From contig NZ_BDCO01000002.1 of the NCBI RefSeq assembly GCF_001613545.1, forward strand, positions 310,001 to 374,000: a stretch of DNA of 64,000 nucleotides, read 5' to 3'. Position numbers and translations under genes: made by a program. This document shows, piece after piece, positions 19,552 through 27,390 of the stretch. The stretch comes from Terrimicrobium sacchariphilum. Lineage in GTDB: Bacteria > Verrucomicrobiota > Verrucomicrobiia > Chthoniobacterales > Terrimicrobiaceae. Under the pieces are notes generated by a model. The model was not told where the DNA came from and ran no database searches. It saw only the letters and a list, made by a program, of their open reading frames with translations. How positions within the stretch are numbered: position 1 is the first letter of the stretch; each line of letters begins with the position of its first letter.

Positions 19552-20529
19552 TTAGCGGAGGGAGCGACGACGAGCGGAGATCCCGCGCAGAACGAGAAAT
19601 GAGATCCCGGCAATAACCAGAGACACGCTTGAGGGCTCCGGTACCGGAATGACATCGGAGAGCGAAGTGCCCACACGCATTTCGTCGAAGTAAACCGTCT
19701 GGGAGACCTGTGCATTGCCAATGGCAAACTGGATACCGCCGCCCGTCTGGAGTGTGTAGGTGCCCGATGTGACGGATGACGAAACTGCGCTGAAGATGGT
19801 GTTGCCACCCGAGGCGCCGACAGTCGCCGCAGCGAGCGCGGCGGTCGTTACGCCTCCATGGGAGTTGAAGTAGTTGTACTGATCGAGCGTCATTACGTAA
19901 GTCGTCCCCAGCCCGGGGCTGCCCGCCGACAAGCTCGTGCCGGTATTCGTAAAGATGCCAACCACGAGATAAGTGGTATTCAGGCTGAGCGATCCGGCGG
20001 TGGTGGCCGGCGAGCTGCTGTTCACCTGAGAGGCATTCAATCCATAGGCATTGCCTGGGACTGTCGAGGATGACGTATCCCCGTAGCTCTGGAAAAATGC
20101 GGTTGCACCTGACGCATTCTGCGACGTGTTTATACGCAAGCCGCTGCTTGATGCTGTTGTGATGCCGGAGGCAATGTTGAGCAGGAAGCTCGTGTATACC
20201 GTTCCCGTCACGCTCGGTCCGTTGTAATTGTAGGTCAGGCCCGCCGCCACGCCCGCATTGTCCGCATACATCGCCGATCCGGCGCTCACCGGCATGGACC
20301 CAAAGGTCAGGCCATTGGCACTTGCATAATAGTCATTGGATTGCCCGATGCCGCCCACCGTCCCGCTCACTCCGTAGGCGCTGGACCCGACAGGCTTGCC
20401 TGCCAGCTGTTGCCCGGCCGCATAGCCGGTAAATCCTTCATATGCTAACAGCGTCGCGTGTGCGGTTATGCTGGGTGCGAGTCCGGCGACGACTGCGGCC
20501 AGGAGGAGTTGAGAAATGGCGGTTTTCAT
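19552..20529 (-). CDS. PEP-CTERM sorting domain protein, head of glycan operon
   Basis: 325 residues from the ATG at 20529 (MKTAISQLLLAAVVAGLAPSITAHA is the signal peptide). LLAYEGFTGYAAGQQL starts the mature part; LNTTYLVVGIFTNTGTSL and YFDEMRVGTSLSDVIPVPEP mark a jelly-roll type shared with the protein at 41322-42278. The tail PVPEPSSVSLVIAGISFLVL then RGISARRR is an exosortase sorting signal. It is the first gene of a five-gene leftward operon ending in the GH-A glycosidase and faces an AraC gene. It may be an exported surface or matrix protein that handles the glycan, which is inference. Confidence 0.85.
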   Translation of the reverse strand: MKTAISQLLLAAVVAGLAPSITAHATLLAYEGFTGYAAGQQLAGKPVGSSAYGVSGTVGGIGQSNDYYASANGLTFGSMPVSAGSAMYADNAGVAAGLTYNYNGPSVTGTVYTSFLLNIASGITTASSSGLRINTSQNASGATAFFQSYGDTSSSTVPGNAYGLNASQVNSSSPATTAGSLSLNTTYLVVGIFTNTGTSLSAGSPGLGTTYVMTLDQYNYFNSHGGVTTAALAAATVGASGGNTIFSAVSSSVTSGTYTLQTGGGIQFAIGNAQVSQTVYFDEMRVGTSLSDVIPVPEPSSVSLVIAGISFLVLRGISARRRSLR

Positions 20530-20654
20530 CGTTTTAAGGTGAGGGGATGGAGTGGGACCTTCAGGTTGGTTCTTGGAAAAACGTAACCAGCTGCCAGGCA
20601 ACGGGCCATAATTTGCGGTTGCCGGATTTGTCCGAAAAGTTTCATGATCTGAAC

Positions 20655-21518
20655 ATGGCGCGCATCCAGGAAAATCCCATCGGTCCACTGGAGGATTGGG
20701 AGAACCTTCGCACGGAGCTTGTCTGGGCTTATCAGGGGGAGGTCACCCAGTATGCGAACTGTCGCTACCCTGCGTTTCCTTTTGCTGCGTGGCTCTTGTT
20801 GAAGGGATCGGTCACGCTGTCGTTTTCCCACCATATGGAGAAGTACAAGGCCGGACGCTGGATCTTTCCCCGGGCGGAGGAGGGATGGCAGGAGTTCAGT
20901 CACGATGCGGAAGTCCTATCGATTCGCTTCATTGCCCAATGGCCCACCGGCGATCCACTCTTTGACCGGTCAAATACCATTAGTGTCGATGCCGGGCGGA
21001 TTCCCCGGTTTACCCAGAGTTCAAAACGTCTCGTGCGGGTCGTGCGCCGGCAGTTTCCCGGCATCACCGATCTACTGCGGTATGCGCCAGGCACCCCGGA
21101 GCGGCACTTCGAGTTTCATCTCGAGTTCTCCCGCTGGTTGCTTGCGTACACCCGGGCGATGCGGGAGATAGGCCTCCCGCCGCATGTCGTGGGCCAGCTC
21201 GACGATCGGGTACGTGCCGCGCTCGATTTCATGGAGAGCAACAATCTTCGGCGGCCGCCCAATGAACGGCAGCTTGCCCAGCATGTGGGCGTCAGCGTGA
21301 CGCATCTGAACCGCCTTTTCTCCCAGGATCTCGGCAAGACTCCCATCCGTTACTGGGAGGACAAGCGGATTCAAGCGGCCCGCTACTCGATCGAGGAAAG
21401 CTCGAAGAGTCTCAAATCCATTGCCTATGACATGGGTTTTGCCTCCCTTTCTCATTTCTCCTCCTGGGTCAGGCGGAAACTGGGGAAATCTCCTCGTGCC
21501 CTTAGGGCCCTTCGCTAA
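20655..21518 (+). CDS. AraC-family transcriptional regulator
   Basis: 287 residues from ATG 20655, which gives the usual length; an in-frame ATG at 20547 would leave only 17 bases to the divergent gene. The N-terminal domain (YPAFPFAAWLLLKGSVTLSF, RWIFPRAEEGWQEFSHDAEVLSIRF) looks cupin-like. The C-terminus has NERQLAQHVGVSVTHLNRLFSQDLGKTPIRYW and LKSIAYDMGFASLSHFSSWVRRKLGKSPRALR, both AraC helix-turn-helix units. As the divergent neighbour it is the natural activator of the PEP-CTERM/FAD/pseudopilin/CBM/GH operon. Confidence 0.87.
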   Translation: MARIQENPIGPLEDWENLRTELVWAYQGEVTQYANCRYPAFPFAAWLLLKGSVTLSFSHHMEKYKAGRWIFPRAEEGWQEFSHDAEVLSIRFIAQWPTGDPLFDRSNTISVDAGRIPRFTQSSKRLVRVVRRQFPGITDLLRYAPGTPERHFEFHLEFSRWLLAYTRAMREIGLPPHVVGQLDDRVRAALDFMESNNLRRPPNERQLAQHVGVSVTHLNRLFSQDLGKTPIRYWEDKRIQAARYSIEESSKSLKSIAYDMGFASLSHFSSWVRRKLGKSPRALRALR

Positions 21519-21702: not shown

Positions 21703-22836
21703 ATGGCAGCCACACTTCCCCCGCGTCCAGCCAATCTCAATGGTGAGCCTGTGGTCTGGAGCAAGGGACCTCCGCCGAAAGTGCTTGGCGTTTCTATTTC
21801 CGGCCTGCCGGGATGGCGTGAGAAGCTTTTCTGGAGACTTCAGATCTGCGGGTGGAGCGTCGCGGCCGTCCTGTCCACCTTCTTCGTCGCTCTCGGTCCA
21901 TTTCATATTGAGCATGCCTTGCTGCTGGCGCTGACTCGCAATGTCTTTGGATTTACCGCCACCCTGGGGATGCGCTGCGTTTTTCGTGCGCTGCGACGGC
22001 GGTCCAGTAGCGTTTGGATATGGGCGCTTGTCGTGCTGCCTCTGAGTGCGCTGGCGTCCTTTTTTGACGGCCTCATGATGCTCTTTGTGGCACGCCAGCT
22101 CGGGGTGGATTTTGCTTCGGTTTCGCTGGGTCGGCTCGTGGCAGCGAGCACATTTATGAGGTGGGTGCTGTATTTGCTTTGGAGCATTCTTTATTTCGGG
22201 ATCAATTACTGGATTGAGGTCCAGCACGAGCAACTGCGCATCGCCCGGCGGGACGCCGAGAACCGCACGAATGAACTTCGCCTGCTCCGCGCTCAGGTGA
22301 ATCCACATTTTCTCTTTAACGCGCTGACCTCCATTCAGGCAGTGGCGGGCGATCGTCAGAGAGCAGAGCCCCTTATTCAGGCCTTCGGCGATTACCTGAG
22401 GTTCTCCCTCGAGGGACGCCGGGATATGTTGCCCCTCGGCGTGGAGTTGGAGGCGCTGGAGAATTACCTGCAAGTCGAAAAGGTGCGGTTTGATAGCAGG
22501 CTCGAGTATGTCATCGATGCTTCTCCGGCAGCGCGCAAGGTGAGCGTCCCGATCGCGCTGGTGCAGCCGCTGGTGGAGAACGCGATGAAATTTGCGCAGA
22601 AGTCCGGCATCTGGCCTCTGCGCGTAGCCATCCGTGCCTCACTGGAGGGCGATCGTCTCCATGTCACCGTGGCAAATACCGGGTATTGGGTAGAGTTCGA
22701 CGAGTCCTCTTCCACGGGTATCGGACTAGATAACCTGCGGCGACGGCTGAATTTACTCTTTGGCGCTGAGGCGGAGCTTGACGTCGCGGCCGTGGGAGAT
22801 CAGGTGATAGCTTCTGTTATTGTTCCGGCCTCCTAG
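21703..22836 (+). CDS. LytS/YehU-type sensor histidine kinase
   Basis: 377 residues. The N-terminal 180 residues contain several hydrophobic segments (WSVAAVLSTFFVALGPF, IWALVVLPLSALASFFDGLM, WVLYLLWSILYFGINYW), so it is a membrane protein. The His_kinase domain begins LRLLRAQVNPHFLFNALTSIQ: the phosphoacceptor histidine is in NPHFLFN, typical of the LytS class. The GHKL ATPase follows, with PLVENAMKFAQKSG and GIGLDNLRRRLNLLFG. It stops one base before the LytTR response regulator gene, so they form a two-component pair. The signal is unknown. Confidence 0.88.
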   Translation: MAATLPPRPANLNGEPVVWSKGPPPKVLGVSISGLPGWREKLFWRLQICGWSVAAVLSTFFVALGPFHIEHALLLALTRNVFGFTATLGMRCVFRALRRRSSSVWIWALVVLPLSALASFFDGLMMLFVARQLGVDFASVSLGRLVAASTFMRWVLYLLWSILYFGINYWIEVQHEQLRIARRDAENRTNELRLLRAQVNPHFLFNALTSIQAVAGDRQRAEPLIQAFGDYLRFSLEGRRDMLPLGVELEALENYLQVEKVRFDSRLEYVIDASPAARKVSVPIALVQPLVENAMKFAQKSGIWPLRVAIRASLEGDRLHVTVANTGYWVEFDESSSTGIGLDNLRRRLNLLFGAEAELDVAAVGDQVIASVIVPAS

Positions 22837-22837
22837 T

Positions 22838-23578
22838 ATGAACCGATCCCTTTCCGCGCTGCTGGTCGATGATGAACCGCTCGCCCGGCTTCACTTGCGG
22901 CGTTTGCTGGAGGAGCACGGAGGAGTCACGATCGCCGGGGAGGCCGGTTGTGTGACGGAGGCTGCGACCCTCGCCAAGAGCTGTCGTCCCGACCTGATCT
23001 TTCTTGATATCGACCTGCCTCCGCATACCGGGTTTGACCTTTTGCCGGCACTGGACTCCCCGCAAAAAATCGTGTTTGTCACAGCTTTTGACGAGTTCGC
23101 CGTTCGGGCGTTTGAGATCAACTCTCTCGATTATCTTCTCAAGCCGGTGAGTGCGGCGAGGCTCAGGGAAACCCTGCGTCGTTGTGAACTGGCGCCTTCT
23201 TCGGTGATGTCTCCGCCGTCCTGCGTGCAGAGACTTTTGATCGACGATCAAGTGGTCCTGCGGGATCGGCAGCACATGAAGCTGGCTCCCGTCCGGCAGA
23301 TCACCGCCATCAAGGCGGAAGGAACCTACACCCGGGTTTTTCTGGCGGAAGGCGATTCGCTGATCGTGCTAAAGCCAATCGGCGAATGGGAGTTTTGCCT
23401 GCCTGCTCCTCCGTTTATGCGTCTCGATCGCTCTCTGATCATCAACTGTGAGGCGGTGACGGATCTTCACGTTTACGGCAGGGATGATATGAGAGTGACA
23501 CTCAAAGGTGTTACGGAAGTCTTTGTCCTCGGTCGAACGGCTTCAAGCCGACTCCGAAGCACCATGGCAGGCAGGTGA
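22838..23578 (+). CDS. LytTR-family response regulator
   Basis: 246 residues from ATG 22838. The receiver domain has the acidic pair in LLVDDEPLARLHL, the phosphoacceptor in DLIFLDIDLPPHTGFDLL and the lysine in YLLKPVSAARLRE. A C-terminal LytTR DNA-binding domain follows from about residue 150 (ITAIKAEGTYTRVFL, PFMRLDRSLIINCEAV). LytTR proteins bind two ~9-bp direct repeats about 12 bp apart, and just such an element lies 17 bases after this gene. Phosphorylation by the kinase at 21703 is inferred from the pairing. Confidence 0.88.
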   Translation: MNRSLSALLVDDEPLARLHLRRLLEEHGGVTIAGEAGCVTEAATLAKSCRPDLIFLDIDLPPHTGFDLLPALDSPQKIVFVTAFDEFAVRAFEINSLDYLLKPVSAARLRETLRRCELAPSSVMSPPSCVQRLLIDDQVVLRDRQHMKLAPVRQITAIKAEGTYTRVFLAEGDSLIVLKPIGEWEFCLPAPPFMRLDRSLIINCEAVTDLHVYGRDDMRVTLKGVTEVFVLGRTASSRLRSTMAGR

Positions 23579-23594
23579 GTTTCTGACTTCGCGC

Positions 23595-23628
23595 CCGATT
23601 CGTTAAATATTCGGGCCGGTTCGTTAAA
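23595..23628 (+). promoter_or_regulatory. Tandem direct repeat, candidate LytTR binding site
   Basis: CCGATTCGTTAAA at 23595-23607 and CCGGTTCGTTAAA at 23616-23628 differ by one base. The core TTCGTTAAA is repeated with 21 bp start to start, leaving 12 bp between cores. This is the spacing and GTT core of known LytTR sites. It lies between the response regulator gene and the repeat-rich PEP-CTERM gene that starts at 23691. Confidence 0.6.
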
Positions 23629-23690
23629 CGGCGCTTTTCATGATGAGCCCGTAAAAATAAGGCACTCGGCCTAAACCATATTACGCCGAC

Positions 23691-25736
23691 ATGAAGAATC
23701 GCCGACAGAAAAGCAGGGTGCGCAAAGGAATTGCATGGGGAGCTGGCAGATTCGCCGCCCCGTGCCTGGCGCTCATGGTAATGACCGGCGCGAGCCATGC
23801 GGCGACAAGCACCTGGGTGGGTAGCGGAGATAATAGCAACTGGATGAACCCCCAAAACTGGTCGGGCGGTTCCGCTCCGGTAGCCGGGAATTCTTTGCTG
23901 TTCACCGGCAATCTGCGCACCGATCCGGTGAACAATTTTACTGGAGGAACTTCCTTCGCAGGCATCACGTTTGGCGCATCAGCGTCGGCTTCCTTCACCA
24001 TCAGTGGAAACGGAATTTTTCTCACGGGCGATGTCGTCAACAACAGCTCGCTTTCGCAGTCGATAGCAGCGCTGTCCGGCGCAGGCTTTACCCTTAACGG
24101 GGGCGACCGCACATTTAGTGCCGCTGCTGGCGACCTGGCCATTCAGTCGAAAGTCAATACGAATGGCAATCTCCTGACCGCGAACGCCTCCACCGGCAAG
24201 ACGCTTACGCTGAATGGCATCATCAGCGGGGCGGGCGGACTCACCAAGTCTGGCGAGGGTACGACAGTGCTGGGAGGGGTCAATACATTCACGGGTGCGA
24301 CCACTCTGAATGGCGGTTCCCTGGGGCTGAACTCCACCGCGGCCCTTCAGTCCACCTCGGGGATCACGTTTGCCTCGGGAGCGACCTCGACCTTGTATGC
24401 GATGCAATCGGGTATCACCATCGATCGAAATATCACCCAGTCGGGGACGGCGATCTATCAGGTGGATTCCGGGAATACGCTGACGCTGAGCGGTGCGATT
24501 TCTGGGGCCGGCAACTTTCAAACGCTCGGTTCAGGCACCGTAGCTCTCACCGGCAGCAATTCGTACACTGGTTCGACTCTCATCTCCGGGAGCACCTTGG
24601 CTATCAATACGGCGACTGCGGTGCAGTCCACTTCCCGAGTTATCTTTGGAACGGGCACTGCCGCGACCTTGTATGCAACCCAGAGCATGGCTCTTGATCG
24701 CATCATGGATCAGACCGGCCGCGGAAACTACCAGGTGGACTCAGGCAATACGCTCACGCTTAATGGACTCGTCACAGGCGTCGGCCAGTTTCAGAAATTT
24801 GGCCTTGGCACCGTGGTGCTTAACGCTGCTAACGACTACAGCGGCAAGACGGTTGTCAATGCAGGCACGCTACGGCTTGGGACCTCGGGTTCCATTGCTT
24901 CCACAAATATCGACGTCCTGGGTGGTACGTTTGACATGAATGGCAAGAACCACACGATGGGCGGCACACTCACACTCGGTAGCGGCTCCACGAGCGGATC
25001 GCTTTCCTCCAGTGGCAGCGCCAGCACTCTTTCGGTGGGTACTTCCATCCTGGTGCAATCCGGCTCGATCTCGGTGAATCTCGCTGGTGCCGCAGTCCTT
25101 ACCAAGACCACCACCGGGACGGTGGTTCTCTCGGGCACCAACTCCTACACCGGTCAGACGTCCGTGAATGCGGGTACACTGGTCGTTAACGGGTACAATG
25201 CGGTGAGCAACGTCGTGGTCGCCAGCGGAGGTACTTTGAAAGGCTCCGGGAGTGTGGGCGATGTCCAGTTGCAATCCGGTGCGGTCGCACGGGCGGGAAG
25301 CGATATGGGTATCCTAAGTACCAAGAATCTCACCATGCAGGCTGGTTCGACCTTGGGGGTGAACATAGGAGGTGCCACCTCGGGCACGGGATACAGCGCG
25401 TTCGCGGTTCTTGGAGGCGTGACTTTGGACGGCAATCTCGACGTGGCCATCACCTTCACCCCTGCCTATGGCGATATCTTCTTTGTTATCGTTAATGACG
25501 GCAGCGATGCGGTGTCGGGCACCTTTGCTGGCCTGGCCAATGGCAGCTTGTTTCTCGTGGGTGGCCAGCAGTTCAAGATCAGCTATGTCGCGGATAGCGG
25601 GATGAACTCTCTCTCGGGAGGCAACGACGTCGCCATCATGGCGGTTCCGGAACCCGCCCCGATCGCGCTGATGCTGTTTGCCTTTGGAGGTGCCTTTTGG
25701 CTCATGCGATGCCGTCTCCCGCGTCCAAACAATTAG
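23691..25736 (+). CDS. Autotransporter-repeat PEP-CTERM protein
   Basis: 681 residues. The signal peptide is long (MKNRRQKSRVRKGIAWGAGR then FAAPCLALMVMTGASHAA). The body is made of repeats such as GSGTVALTGSNSYTGSTLISG and SGTNSYTGQTSVNAGTLVVNG, the passenger-associated transport repeat or beta-strand repeat. The tail VPEPAPIALMLFAFGGAFWLM then RCRLPRPNN is a PEP-CTERM sorting signal. There is no autotransporter barrel, so surface placement must rely on exosortase or another route. Two ~92-residue tandem units lie at 24312-24863. A LytTR-type element lies about 60 bases upstream. Likely an extracellular adhesin or matrix protein. Confidence 0.85.
   Translation: MKNRRQKSRVRKGIAWGAGRFAAPCLALMVMTGASHAATSTWVGSGDNSNWMNPQNWSGGSAPVAGNSLLFTGNLRTDPVNNFTGGTSFAGITFGASASASFTISGNGIFLTGDVVNNSSLSQSIAALSGAGFTLNGGDRTFSAAAGDLAIQSKVNTNGNLLTANASTGKTLTLNGIISGAGGLTKSGEGTTVLGGVNTFTGATTLNGGSLGLNSTAALQSTSGITFASGATSTLYAMQSGITIDRNITQSGTAIYQVDSGNTLTLSGAISGAGNFQTLGSGTVALTGSNSYTGSTLISGSTLAINTATAVQSTSRVIFGTGTAATLYATQSMALDRIMDQTGRGNYQVDSGNTLTLNGLVTGVGQFQKFGLGTVVLNAANDYSGKTVVNAGTLRLGTSGSIASTNIDVLGGTFDMNGKNHTMGGTLTLGSGSTSGSLSSSGSASTLSVGTSILVQSGSISVNLAGAAVLTKTTTGTVVLSGTNSYTGQTSVNAGTLVVNGYNAVSNVVVASGGTLKGSGSVGDVQLQSGAVARAGSDMGILSTKNLTMQAGSTLGVNIGGATSGTGYSAFAVLGGVTLDGNLDVAITFTPAYGDIFFVIVNDGSDAVSGTFAGLANGSLFLVGGQQFKISYVADSGMNSLSGGNDVAIMAVPEPAPIALMLFAFGGAFWLMRCRLPRPNN
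24312..24863 (+). repeat. Two tandem ~276-bp repeats in the PEP-CTERM gene
   Basis: The first unit starts near GSLGLNSTAALQST, the second 276 bp later at GSTLAINTATAVQST. Both contain a QVDSGNTLTL core and end in a GTVxLxxxNxYxG strand. They are similar but diverged, so old duplication rather than recent slippage. Confidence 0.6.
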
Positions 25737-25845: not shown

Positions 25846-27390
25846 ATGACAGCCACCATCCACAGGTTGAAGGTCGTCATAACGGATTGTTCCGCGGGGC
25901 TCAATATCTCGCTCATGCTCTTGGTGGCCGGTATTGCCATCGTGGGCTTCCTTCCTGCATTCGAAGCGGTGCGGACTCAGGACGAGTTGAGCCCGCCGTT
26001 TGCGGCCTTGAGCAGTGAGCCGTCGAGAGTATTTGGAAAGGATGGAGCAGGGCACCCGTTGAAACCCTGGGTTGCCATCACAGGTACCATTCTGGCGACG
26101 CTCCTCGGGGTGGCCCTCACTGTCGGATCTGCCTGCAAAGCTAAAGCAGACGTCGAGAAGCATCGACGGGCTTGTGCAGAAATCGAAAGCCTTGCTCGCT
26201 CCCACGCTCAGGAGCTTGGCGTGACCGTGGAGAAGCTGGCGCGGGCGGAAGCCGTAAAGTCTGATTTCCTGTCCATCATGAGCCATGAACTGAGGACTCC
26301 GCTTAATACCATTATCGGTTACACGCAACTCCTCCTTGAAGAGCCTCCTTCCTCCCAGCTGCGGAGGGAGTACCTGGAGGCGATCCTCTCTGGAGGAGAT
26401 GCCTTGCGCGGCGTGATCCATGAAGTTCTCGATTTTTCTTCCGTTGACCGAGGCTCGATCAACATTCAGCAGGAGCCTGTCGATATCCGTCAACTTGTTC
26501 GCAAAGTCCTGCTCGCCATGCGTCCGCCCCATCTTTGCGAGCGGCTGGTAGCCGAGATCGACGAGTCCCTGCCGGCTCGCATTCTGACCGATGAAAACAA
26601 ACTCCGGCAGGTCATCCTCAATCTCGTGGCCAATGCCTTGAAATTTGCTCCCACGGGACAGGTGACGGTCCGATGCGGGATGGAGAAGGATGGGCAGCGG
26701 CTGGCCGTCAAGGTTATCGATGACGGCATTGGAATGGCGGAGGCGCAGATCCATCGACTTTTCGAACCCTTTCTCCAGACTGAGCCAGCCACGAGGAGGC
26801 GATCCTCCGGCGTCGGTTTGGGGCTTGCGATTTGCCAGAGATTTATCGAGGCCATGGGAGGTTCCATCACTGCAAAGAGCCAGCCCGGCAAAGGGACTCA
26901 CATTTCATTCTGGCTGCCCCTCAGGCCTGCTGCGGTGGATGAGAGTGCAGGTCATGAGATAGGACTCACACCCGATGGTCTTGGGTCACTACGGTGCCTT
27001 GTCGTGGATGACAATCAGGTGAACCGAAAGCTGATGGTTACACTCCTCGCCCGGCTGGGTATGAAACCGTTGTCGGCCGGTAGCGGCGAGGAGTGCCTCG
27101 CGGTGTTTCGACAGGTCCGTCTTGACGTCATATTTATGGATTTGGACATGCCGGAAATGGACGGCTTCGACACCACTCTGGAGATTCGGCGTATGGAGAC
27201 CTCCCGGGGCATTTCCCCTGTCCCCGTCATCGCCCTGACTGCCGATGTCTTGGAGGGAGTGCGCCAGCGCTGCGCGCAGACAGGAATGAATGGATTTCTG
27301 GCCAAGCCGATCAGAGCGCACGAACTCACCGCCGTCTTGCACTCCCTGCCAGGCAATTGCCAGGCAGGGTCTGGTCCTCTGGGGAGCTGA
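25846..27390 (+). CDS. Hybrid sensor histidine kinase with receiver domain
   Basis: 514 residues from ATG 25846; upstream in-frame sequence overlaps the end of the previous gene and lacks a signal. Two hydrophobic spans (GLNISLMLLVAGIAIVGFLPAF and AITGTILATLLGVALTVG) bracket a short outside loop, so sensing domain is small. A helix leads to LSIMSHELRTPLNTIIG, the H box of HisKA. The ATPase has NLVANALKFAP, DDGIGM and GVGLGLAICQRF. The receiver has LVVDDNQVNR, DVIFMDLDMPEMDGFD and a lysine in GFLAKPIRAH. No DNA-binding output domain; partner proteins are not visible. A terminator-like hairpin follows. Confidence 0.85.
   Translation: MTATIHRLKVVITDCSAGLNISLMLLVAGIAIVGFLPAFEAVRTQDELSPPFAALSSEPSRVFGKDGAGHPLKPWVAITGTILATLLGVALTVGSACKAKADVEKHRRACAEIESLARSHAQELGVTVEKLARAEAVKSDFLSIMSHELRTPLNTIIGYTQLLLEEPPSSQLRREYLEAILSGGDALRGVIHEVLDFSSVDRGSINIQQEPVDIRQLVRKVLLAMRPPHLCERLVAEIDESLPARILTDENKLRQVILNLVANALKFAPTGQVTVRCGMEKDGQRLAVKVIDDGIGMAEAQIHRLFEPFLQTEPATRRRSSGVGLGLAICQRFIEAMGGSITAKSQPGKGTHISFWLPLRPAAVDESAGHEIGLTPDGLGSLRCLVVDDNQVNRKLMVTLLARLGMKPLSAGSGEECLAVFRQVRLDVIFMDLDMPEMDGFDTTLEIRRMETSRGISPVPVIALTADVLEGVRQRCAQTGMNGFLAKPIRAHELTAVLHSLPGNCQAGSGPLGS

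Follow-up and report, generated by a model that had tools for sequence, protein, structure and literature searches.

Regulators with a LytTR DNA-binding domain in general recognise direct repeats of 9-11 nt with spacers of 11-13 nt, for which a common consensus is absent (PMC4847170). The YpdA/YpdB and BtsS/BtsR systems of E. coli consist, like the system described here, of a kinase and a LytTR regulator with a direct repeat and a single main target (PMC4847170, PMC5552118). Their targets are transporters and their signal is pyruvate, whereas the targets here are exported proteins, and the YpdB site, two copies of GGCATTTCAT, has a half-site sequence unlike the present one. AgrA of Staphylococcus aureus (PMC4227749) likewise has a LytTR domain and a site adjoining the core promoter, and the conserved LytTR motif FhRhHRS is kept in the regulator described here as FMRLDRS, with D for H; AgrA differs in serving peptide quorum sensing and in its half-site sequence. 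AlgZ/AlgR of Pseudomonas aeruginosa (PMC4064291) also has a LytTR regulator, and the AlgR half-site consensus, CCGTTCGTC, is closely like the core CCGATTCGTC of the element family reported below. This system controls genes for a surface polymer (alginate) and for pili, which are surface-related like the targets here. However, AlgR sites need not be direct repeats with a 12-bp separation, and they are spread over many promoters, whereas here one or two 21-bp repeats stand beside the system's own genes. The present half-site ends in TTAAA, unlike CCGTTCGTC; the likeness to AlgR is one between sites.

Two-component control of PEP-CTERM genes through an upstream cis-element has been described for PrsK/PrsR of Proteobacteria (PMC1569441), the only PEP-CTERM regulators that our literature search found described. 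PrsR is a sigma-54 NtrC-like activator for many PEP-CTERM genes, whereas the regulator considered here is of the LytTR type and would serve a single target through a local site. The PrsK/PrsR-type motif was present at 99 of 167 proteobacterial PEP-CTERM genes and was not found in the phylum considered here (PMC1569441). The search, which lay largely outside subscription papers, found no pairing of LytTR with PEP-CTERM and barely a mention of LytTR alongside Verrucomicrobi-.

The kinase-regulator pair, the repeat and its predicted target gene

The window analysed here is a stretch of 64,000 nucleotides (contig positions 310,001 to 374,000) from the genome of Terrimicrobium sacchariphilum, of the phylum Verrucomicrobiota. 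Its relevant features are the following.

21703..22836, + strand: membrane histidine kinase, 377 aa; PF06580 (His_kinase), 78.2 bits
22838..23578, + strand: LytTR response regulator, 246 aa; Response_reg PF00072, 67 bits, and LytTR PF04397, 44.7 bits
23595..23607, + strand: distal half-site CCGATTCGTTAAA, read from the sequence
23616..23628, + strand: proximal half-site CCGGTTCGTTAAA, read from the sequence, 21 bp from the distal half-site
23629..23690, + strand: region presumed to hold the core promoter and the 5' leader of the target gene, from sequence and inference
23691..25736, + strand: target, an exported PATR-repeat protein, 681 aa; PATR PF12951 in four stretches
25644..25733, + strand: PEP-CTERM-type exosortase signal at the C-terminus (VPEP, then helix and basic tail); TIGR02595, 15.9 bits (borderline), and pattern

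The stop codon of the kinase lies 1 nt ahead of the ATG of the regulator, and the regulator exceeds the cut-off for both PF00072 and PF04397. The domain search found LytTR in it but no sigma-54 domain, and its best NCBIfam relative is BtsR, at a score far under the BtsR cut-off. An earlier note on this DNA had placed a kinase and a LytTR regulator ahead of a direct repeat, which is borne out by the Pfam domains and the coordinates. Its term "LytS-type" for the kinase is valid in a broad sense only, since PF06580 is matched and no other Pfam domain is reported in the protein.

The half-sites CCGATTCGTTAAA and CCGGTTCGTTAAA are 13 bp long, differ at one position and stand as a direct repeat whose copies start 21 bp apart; the positions and the spacing given in the earlier note (23595 and 23616) were reproduced. 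The TTCGTTAAA cores begin at 23599 and 23620, and the format of 9-nt cores with a 12-nt spacer agrees with that of LytTR sites. In total the element spans 34 bp between the LytTR regulator stop and the PATR-repeat gene, with 17 nt from the stop codon of the regulator to its start and 62 nt from its end to the next ATG. The pattern TTCGTTAAA-N12-TTCGTTAAA has one match in the window, even at three mismatches, and none in 100 dinucleotide shuffles. Its exact form has a single match in the whole 4.75-Mb genome (three contigs), the one before this PEP-CTERM gene. At three mismatches the genome scan yielded three further matches, which is the number also obtained with a reversed control pattern; one of these precedes the nearest paralogous LytTR operon and the remaining two have no evident regulatory setting.

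Between the element and the ATG of the target we recognised neither a sigma-70 promoter consensus nor a terminator or terminator-like structure, and TAAAAAT within 23629..23690 is a possible -10. An unrecognised sigma-70 promoter is not unusual for LytTR-activated promoters, since promoters activated by AgrA have suboptimal spacers (PMC4227749).

At the C-terminus of the target, VPEP, a hydrophobic helix and a basic tail are evident by eye, while the TIGR02595 score of 15.9 bits is borderline against the cut-off of 16.0 and the target is not among the matches reported in the PF07589 scan of the genome. The description of the target as an autotransporter-repeat protein stands as regards the PATR repeats, and its exosortase signal is borderline. 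An exosortase is encoded in the same genome (PF09721, E 1.5e-44), together with about 100 PEP-CTERM genes. Only the target gene was matched by the relaxed element pattern among these, and the three-mismatch scan confirmed that the element is missing before the other PEP-CTERM genes of the window; such genome-wide statements on the element and PEP-CTERM genes rest on pattern and family searches. A global PEP-CTERM regulon was considered and rejected, as the relaxed pattern found this site, the site of the paralogue and two further matches against about 100 PEP-CTERM genes. As judged from these searches the wiring is local, to one gene and not to the other roughly 100.

Another PEP-CTERM gene of the window (19552-20688, - strand) and an AraC-type regulator (20547-21518, + strand) are transcribed in divergent directions, and this different type of regulator may serve that gene. 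About 110 bp past the target, and on its strand, lies the gene of a hybrid histidine kinase (25847-27390; HisKA, HATPase_c and receiver domains), which may be co-transcribed with the target gene.

Spacing and half-sites at LytTR loci

Repeats of 12-base words were scored at each spacing from 13 to 40 bp, free of any assumption on the half-site, in the 300 bp upstream of the kinase and the 300 bp downstream of the regulator at 47 LytTR loci of the order. At a spacing of 21 bp, 25, 20 and 10 of the loci had at least 10, 11 and 12 of 12 matches, respectively, compared with at most 6, 3 and 1 loci at any other spacing; some of the 47 loci are orthologous, and the 25 positives are not 25 independent cases. 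The other 22 loci fall under 10/12 at 21 bp and have no detectable element. The view that 21 bp is the LytTR spacing is upheld in that it is the sole enriched repeat spacing around LytTR genes. At phylum distance, 21-bp repeats counted without regard to the half-site give a weak signal, at 4 of 13 loci.

The common half-site core is CCGATTCGT followed by variants, of which the TTCGTTAAA of the window is one; the core resembles the AlgR consensus CCGTTCGTC. In a Mantel test on 18 non-orthologous systems, half-site similarity was correlated with LytTR-domain identity (r 0.46, p 2e-4) and weakly with receiver-domain identity (r 0.17, p 0.05). The half-site thus tracks the LytTR domain more than the receiver, as predicted for a cognate binding site. 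A further repeat, GAAGTCGGAAGT, also with 21-bp spacing, occurs near several LytTR genes on both strands (L051 6092-6123, L056 5134-5165, L048 1158-1600) and does not match the CCGATTCGT core.

These results bear on whether the repeat in the window could be a chance or non-regulatory sequence, or the remnant of another element. It is short, has two copies and occurs once in the genome, as such a sequence might; however, it is not reproduced in shuffles, it has no terminator-like structure, and its spacing and core are found again at LytTR loci across many genera, as no other spacing is. We regard this explanation as extremely improbable, and in practice refuted by the spacing test and the co-variation of half-site and LytTR domain. 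A LytTR binding site ahead of a PEP-CTERM gene is much the best reading of the sequence data, because of the sole enriched 21-bp spacing, the co-variation and the recurrence of the arrangement, and the proposal of two-component control of a PEP-CTERM protein through a LytTR repeat gains support from the same three observations.

The genome has six LytTR genes, five of which, that of the window among them, have a 21-bp direct repeat ahead of an exported-protein gene. At the nearest paralogue, L048, whose regulator is 50% identical, CCGTTTCGTGAAA/CGGTTTCGTGAAG precedes a small lipoprotein gene and is kept in both other genomes of the genus. At L049, CCCGATTCGCGGA/CCCGATTCACGGA lies 29 bp past the regulator stop, precedes an outer-membrane-like protein, and is kept in both other species of the genus and in another family. 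The repeat GATTCATCGAG/GCTTGGTCGAG of L050, at +52 from a 1381-aa exported protein, is weak (7/12) and conserved in three species, and GCATTCGTC/GCGATTCGTC of L052 (8/12) stands right after the regulator, ahead of a 2232-aa autotransporter with PATR repeats. For the sixth gene, L051, elements of the CCGGATTCATGGAG type stand ahead of PEP-CTERM genes at its relatives from both other species. No orthologue of the window system was found elsewhere in the genus: the comparison with its two further genomes gave paralogues only, and an orthologous regulator-target pair in the genus was rejected on that ground.

A 50%-identical paralogue in the same genome raises the question of whether the element is bound mainly by another LytTR regulator, notably L048 (site TTTCGTGAAR), whose half-site is like that of the window and whose site is picked up by the one-mismatch relaxed pattern. 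We consider this improbable, since the half-site tracks the adjacent regulator and each paralogue's own site is kept in sister species.

Recurrence of the arrangement and its predicted targets

The best relative outside the order, in the same class (G255; regulator 50% identical), has a layout that matches the window: the regulator, GTCGTTTCGTTGAA/CCGGTTTCATGGAA and a PEP-CTERM protein at +51. Another genome of the class (G308) has two elements, at +41 and +42, ahead of two PEP-CTERM genes. In a genome from another family of the order (G101), exact CGATTCGT-N13-CGATTCGT is found twice in 6.3 Mb, both sites flanking one LytTR pair and preceding the genes for a PATR/PA14 protein and a PEP-CTERM protein. 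A relative with 51% identity (G071) has an FGE-sulfatase-like exported protein without PEP-CTERM immediately past the regulator. Of the exact order-wide matches, 7 of 11 are at LytTR loci and 4 of 11 on contigs without a regulator in view. Conservation of the exact element sequence across the order was rejected, none being found. The comparison with relatives thus gave a divided answer: the exact TTCGTTAAA repeat is private to this genome, while the order kinase, regulator, repeat and PEP-CTERM gene recurs in other families and in another order.

Some further arrangements were met in these searches. A multi-copy cassette in G001 (L062-L066) consists of a kinase, a LytTR regulator, a small protein, a protein of ~950 aa and a ~290-aa protein ending DLPPGF, with clear 21-bp repeats (TCCGCTCGTCAC) in two copies only. 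Two genomes of another family have TTCGTTAAA-N12-TTCGTAAAA in common (L093 and L094, in G091 and G092), and a relative of the regulator is absent within 1.5 kb. Perfect 21-bp repeats of CCGGATTCATCGAG stand beside a LytTR pair ahead of genes for cellulose-type LPMO with CBM2 (L119 7971-8003, L080 356-388), and may help in tracing how polysaccharide breakdown is controlled.

Taken in the CCGATTCGT orientation, the element mostly ends 41-63 bp ahead of the start codon of an exported protein, and this distance holds for targets that follow the regulator, are divergent from the kinase or lie on the opposite strand past the regulator. Elements upstream of the kinase were also considered as autoregulatory, an interpretation that was mostly dropped because in the CCGATTCGT orientation they face a divergent gene for an exported protein, at the same distance as elsewhere. 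The position bears further on a reading in which the LytTR site serves for repression, or slows read-through from the kinase-regulator operon, and does not serve for activation. The sign of control is unreadable from sequence, a sigma-70 promoter is unrecognised between the element and the ATG, and AlgR, the nearest known analogue, can repress as well as activate (PMC4064291). Read-through would not, however, explain why the start codon lies at a near-constant 41-63 bp whether the target is divergent, convergent or downstream, and we hold repression or braking to be unlikely, although less so than binding by another regulator.

PEP-CTERM proteins make up about 12 of 26 distinct element-target pairs, with orthologues collapsed by hand (binomial p about 4e-13 against a background of 2.5%, which was estimated from this genome, with its 4.75 Mb and about 100 PEP-CTERM genes), and several of them have PATR repeats or an FGE-sulfatase domain. 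The remaining targets include a PATR/PA14 protein, an autotransporter, an LPMO with CBM2, a multicopper oxidase, a lipoprotein and outer-membrane-like proteins. A PEP-CTERM gene lies within 1.5 kb of 4 of 36 LytTR loci; this range is too narrow, as target genes are often longer, and the count was redone with flanks of about 6 kb, giving 19 of 55 LytTR loci compared with 3 of 34 OmpR-type loci (p = 0.006), the latter coming partly from other genomes. From these predicted pairs, the targets of the family are exported proteins in general, about half of them PEP-CTERM. The suggestion of a signalling route for surface proteins in this phylum is supported in that the arrangement recurs, and has to be narrowed in that the window system has one local target and no orthologue in the genus, and in that the targets are broader than PEP-CTERM proteins.

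Proposed mechanism and significance

The genes, the element, its fixed spacing and recurrence, its position before exported-protein genes and its co-variation with the LytTR domain can be read directly from the genomes. On this basis we consider it highly probable that the sensor and LytTR regulator act through the 21-bp repeat on the PATR PEP-CTERM gene, most likely as activators, and within a family of local modules. The PF06580 sensor kinase would phosphorylate the adjoining LytTR regulator, and the phosphorylated regulator would occupy both CCGRTTCGTTAAA half-sites head to tail, 21 bp or about two helical turns apart. Once bound, the regulator would control, and most likely activate, the promoter of the PATR PEP-CTERM gene, which begins about 60 bp downstream, from a position that covers the -35 region or lies right ahead of it. 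In this scheme we infer the binding of the cognate regulator, its dependence on phosphorylation, activation over repression and the position of the promoter. In the family, which is that of Verrucomicrobiota-like genomes, each LytTR pair would have its own half-site variant and one or two neighbouring exported-protein genes. The predicted system belongs to a family of LytTR systems with local wiring to exported proteins, and is not a global PEP-CTERM regulator.

LytTR two-component systems and direct-repeat sites are already known; what is new is the target class and a locally wired, co-varying family of sites. Verrucomicrobium spinosum has 65 PEP-CTERM proteins, and our literature search found nothing on how any PEP-CTERM gene is switched on in this phylum. 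We give roughly even chances to a wider interpretation, that insulated LytTR modules extend across the lineage, with a private sensor and half-site for each one or two exported proteins (PEP-CTERM, PATR, autotransporter, LPMO) and with the site re-tuned together with the regulator after duplication, which would be the first described regulatory route to exosortase substrates in the phylum. If this is true, there would in effect be one sensor per surface protein. A cis-element whose spacing and position are fixed and which co-varies with the regulator may allow LytTR targets to be predicted across these genomes, and the paralogues may provide a natural set for decoding LytTR recognition, for which a common consensus is so far unreported.
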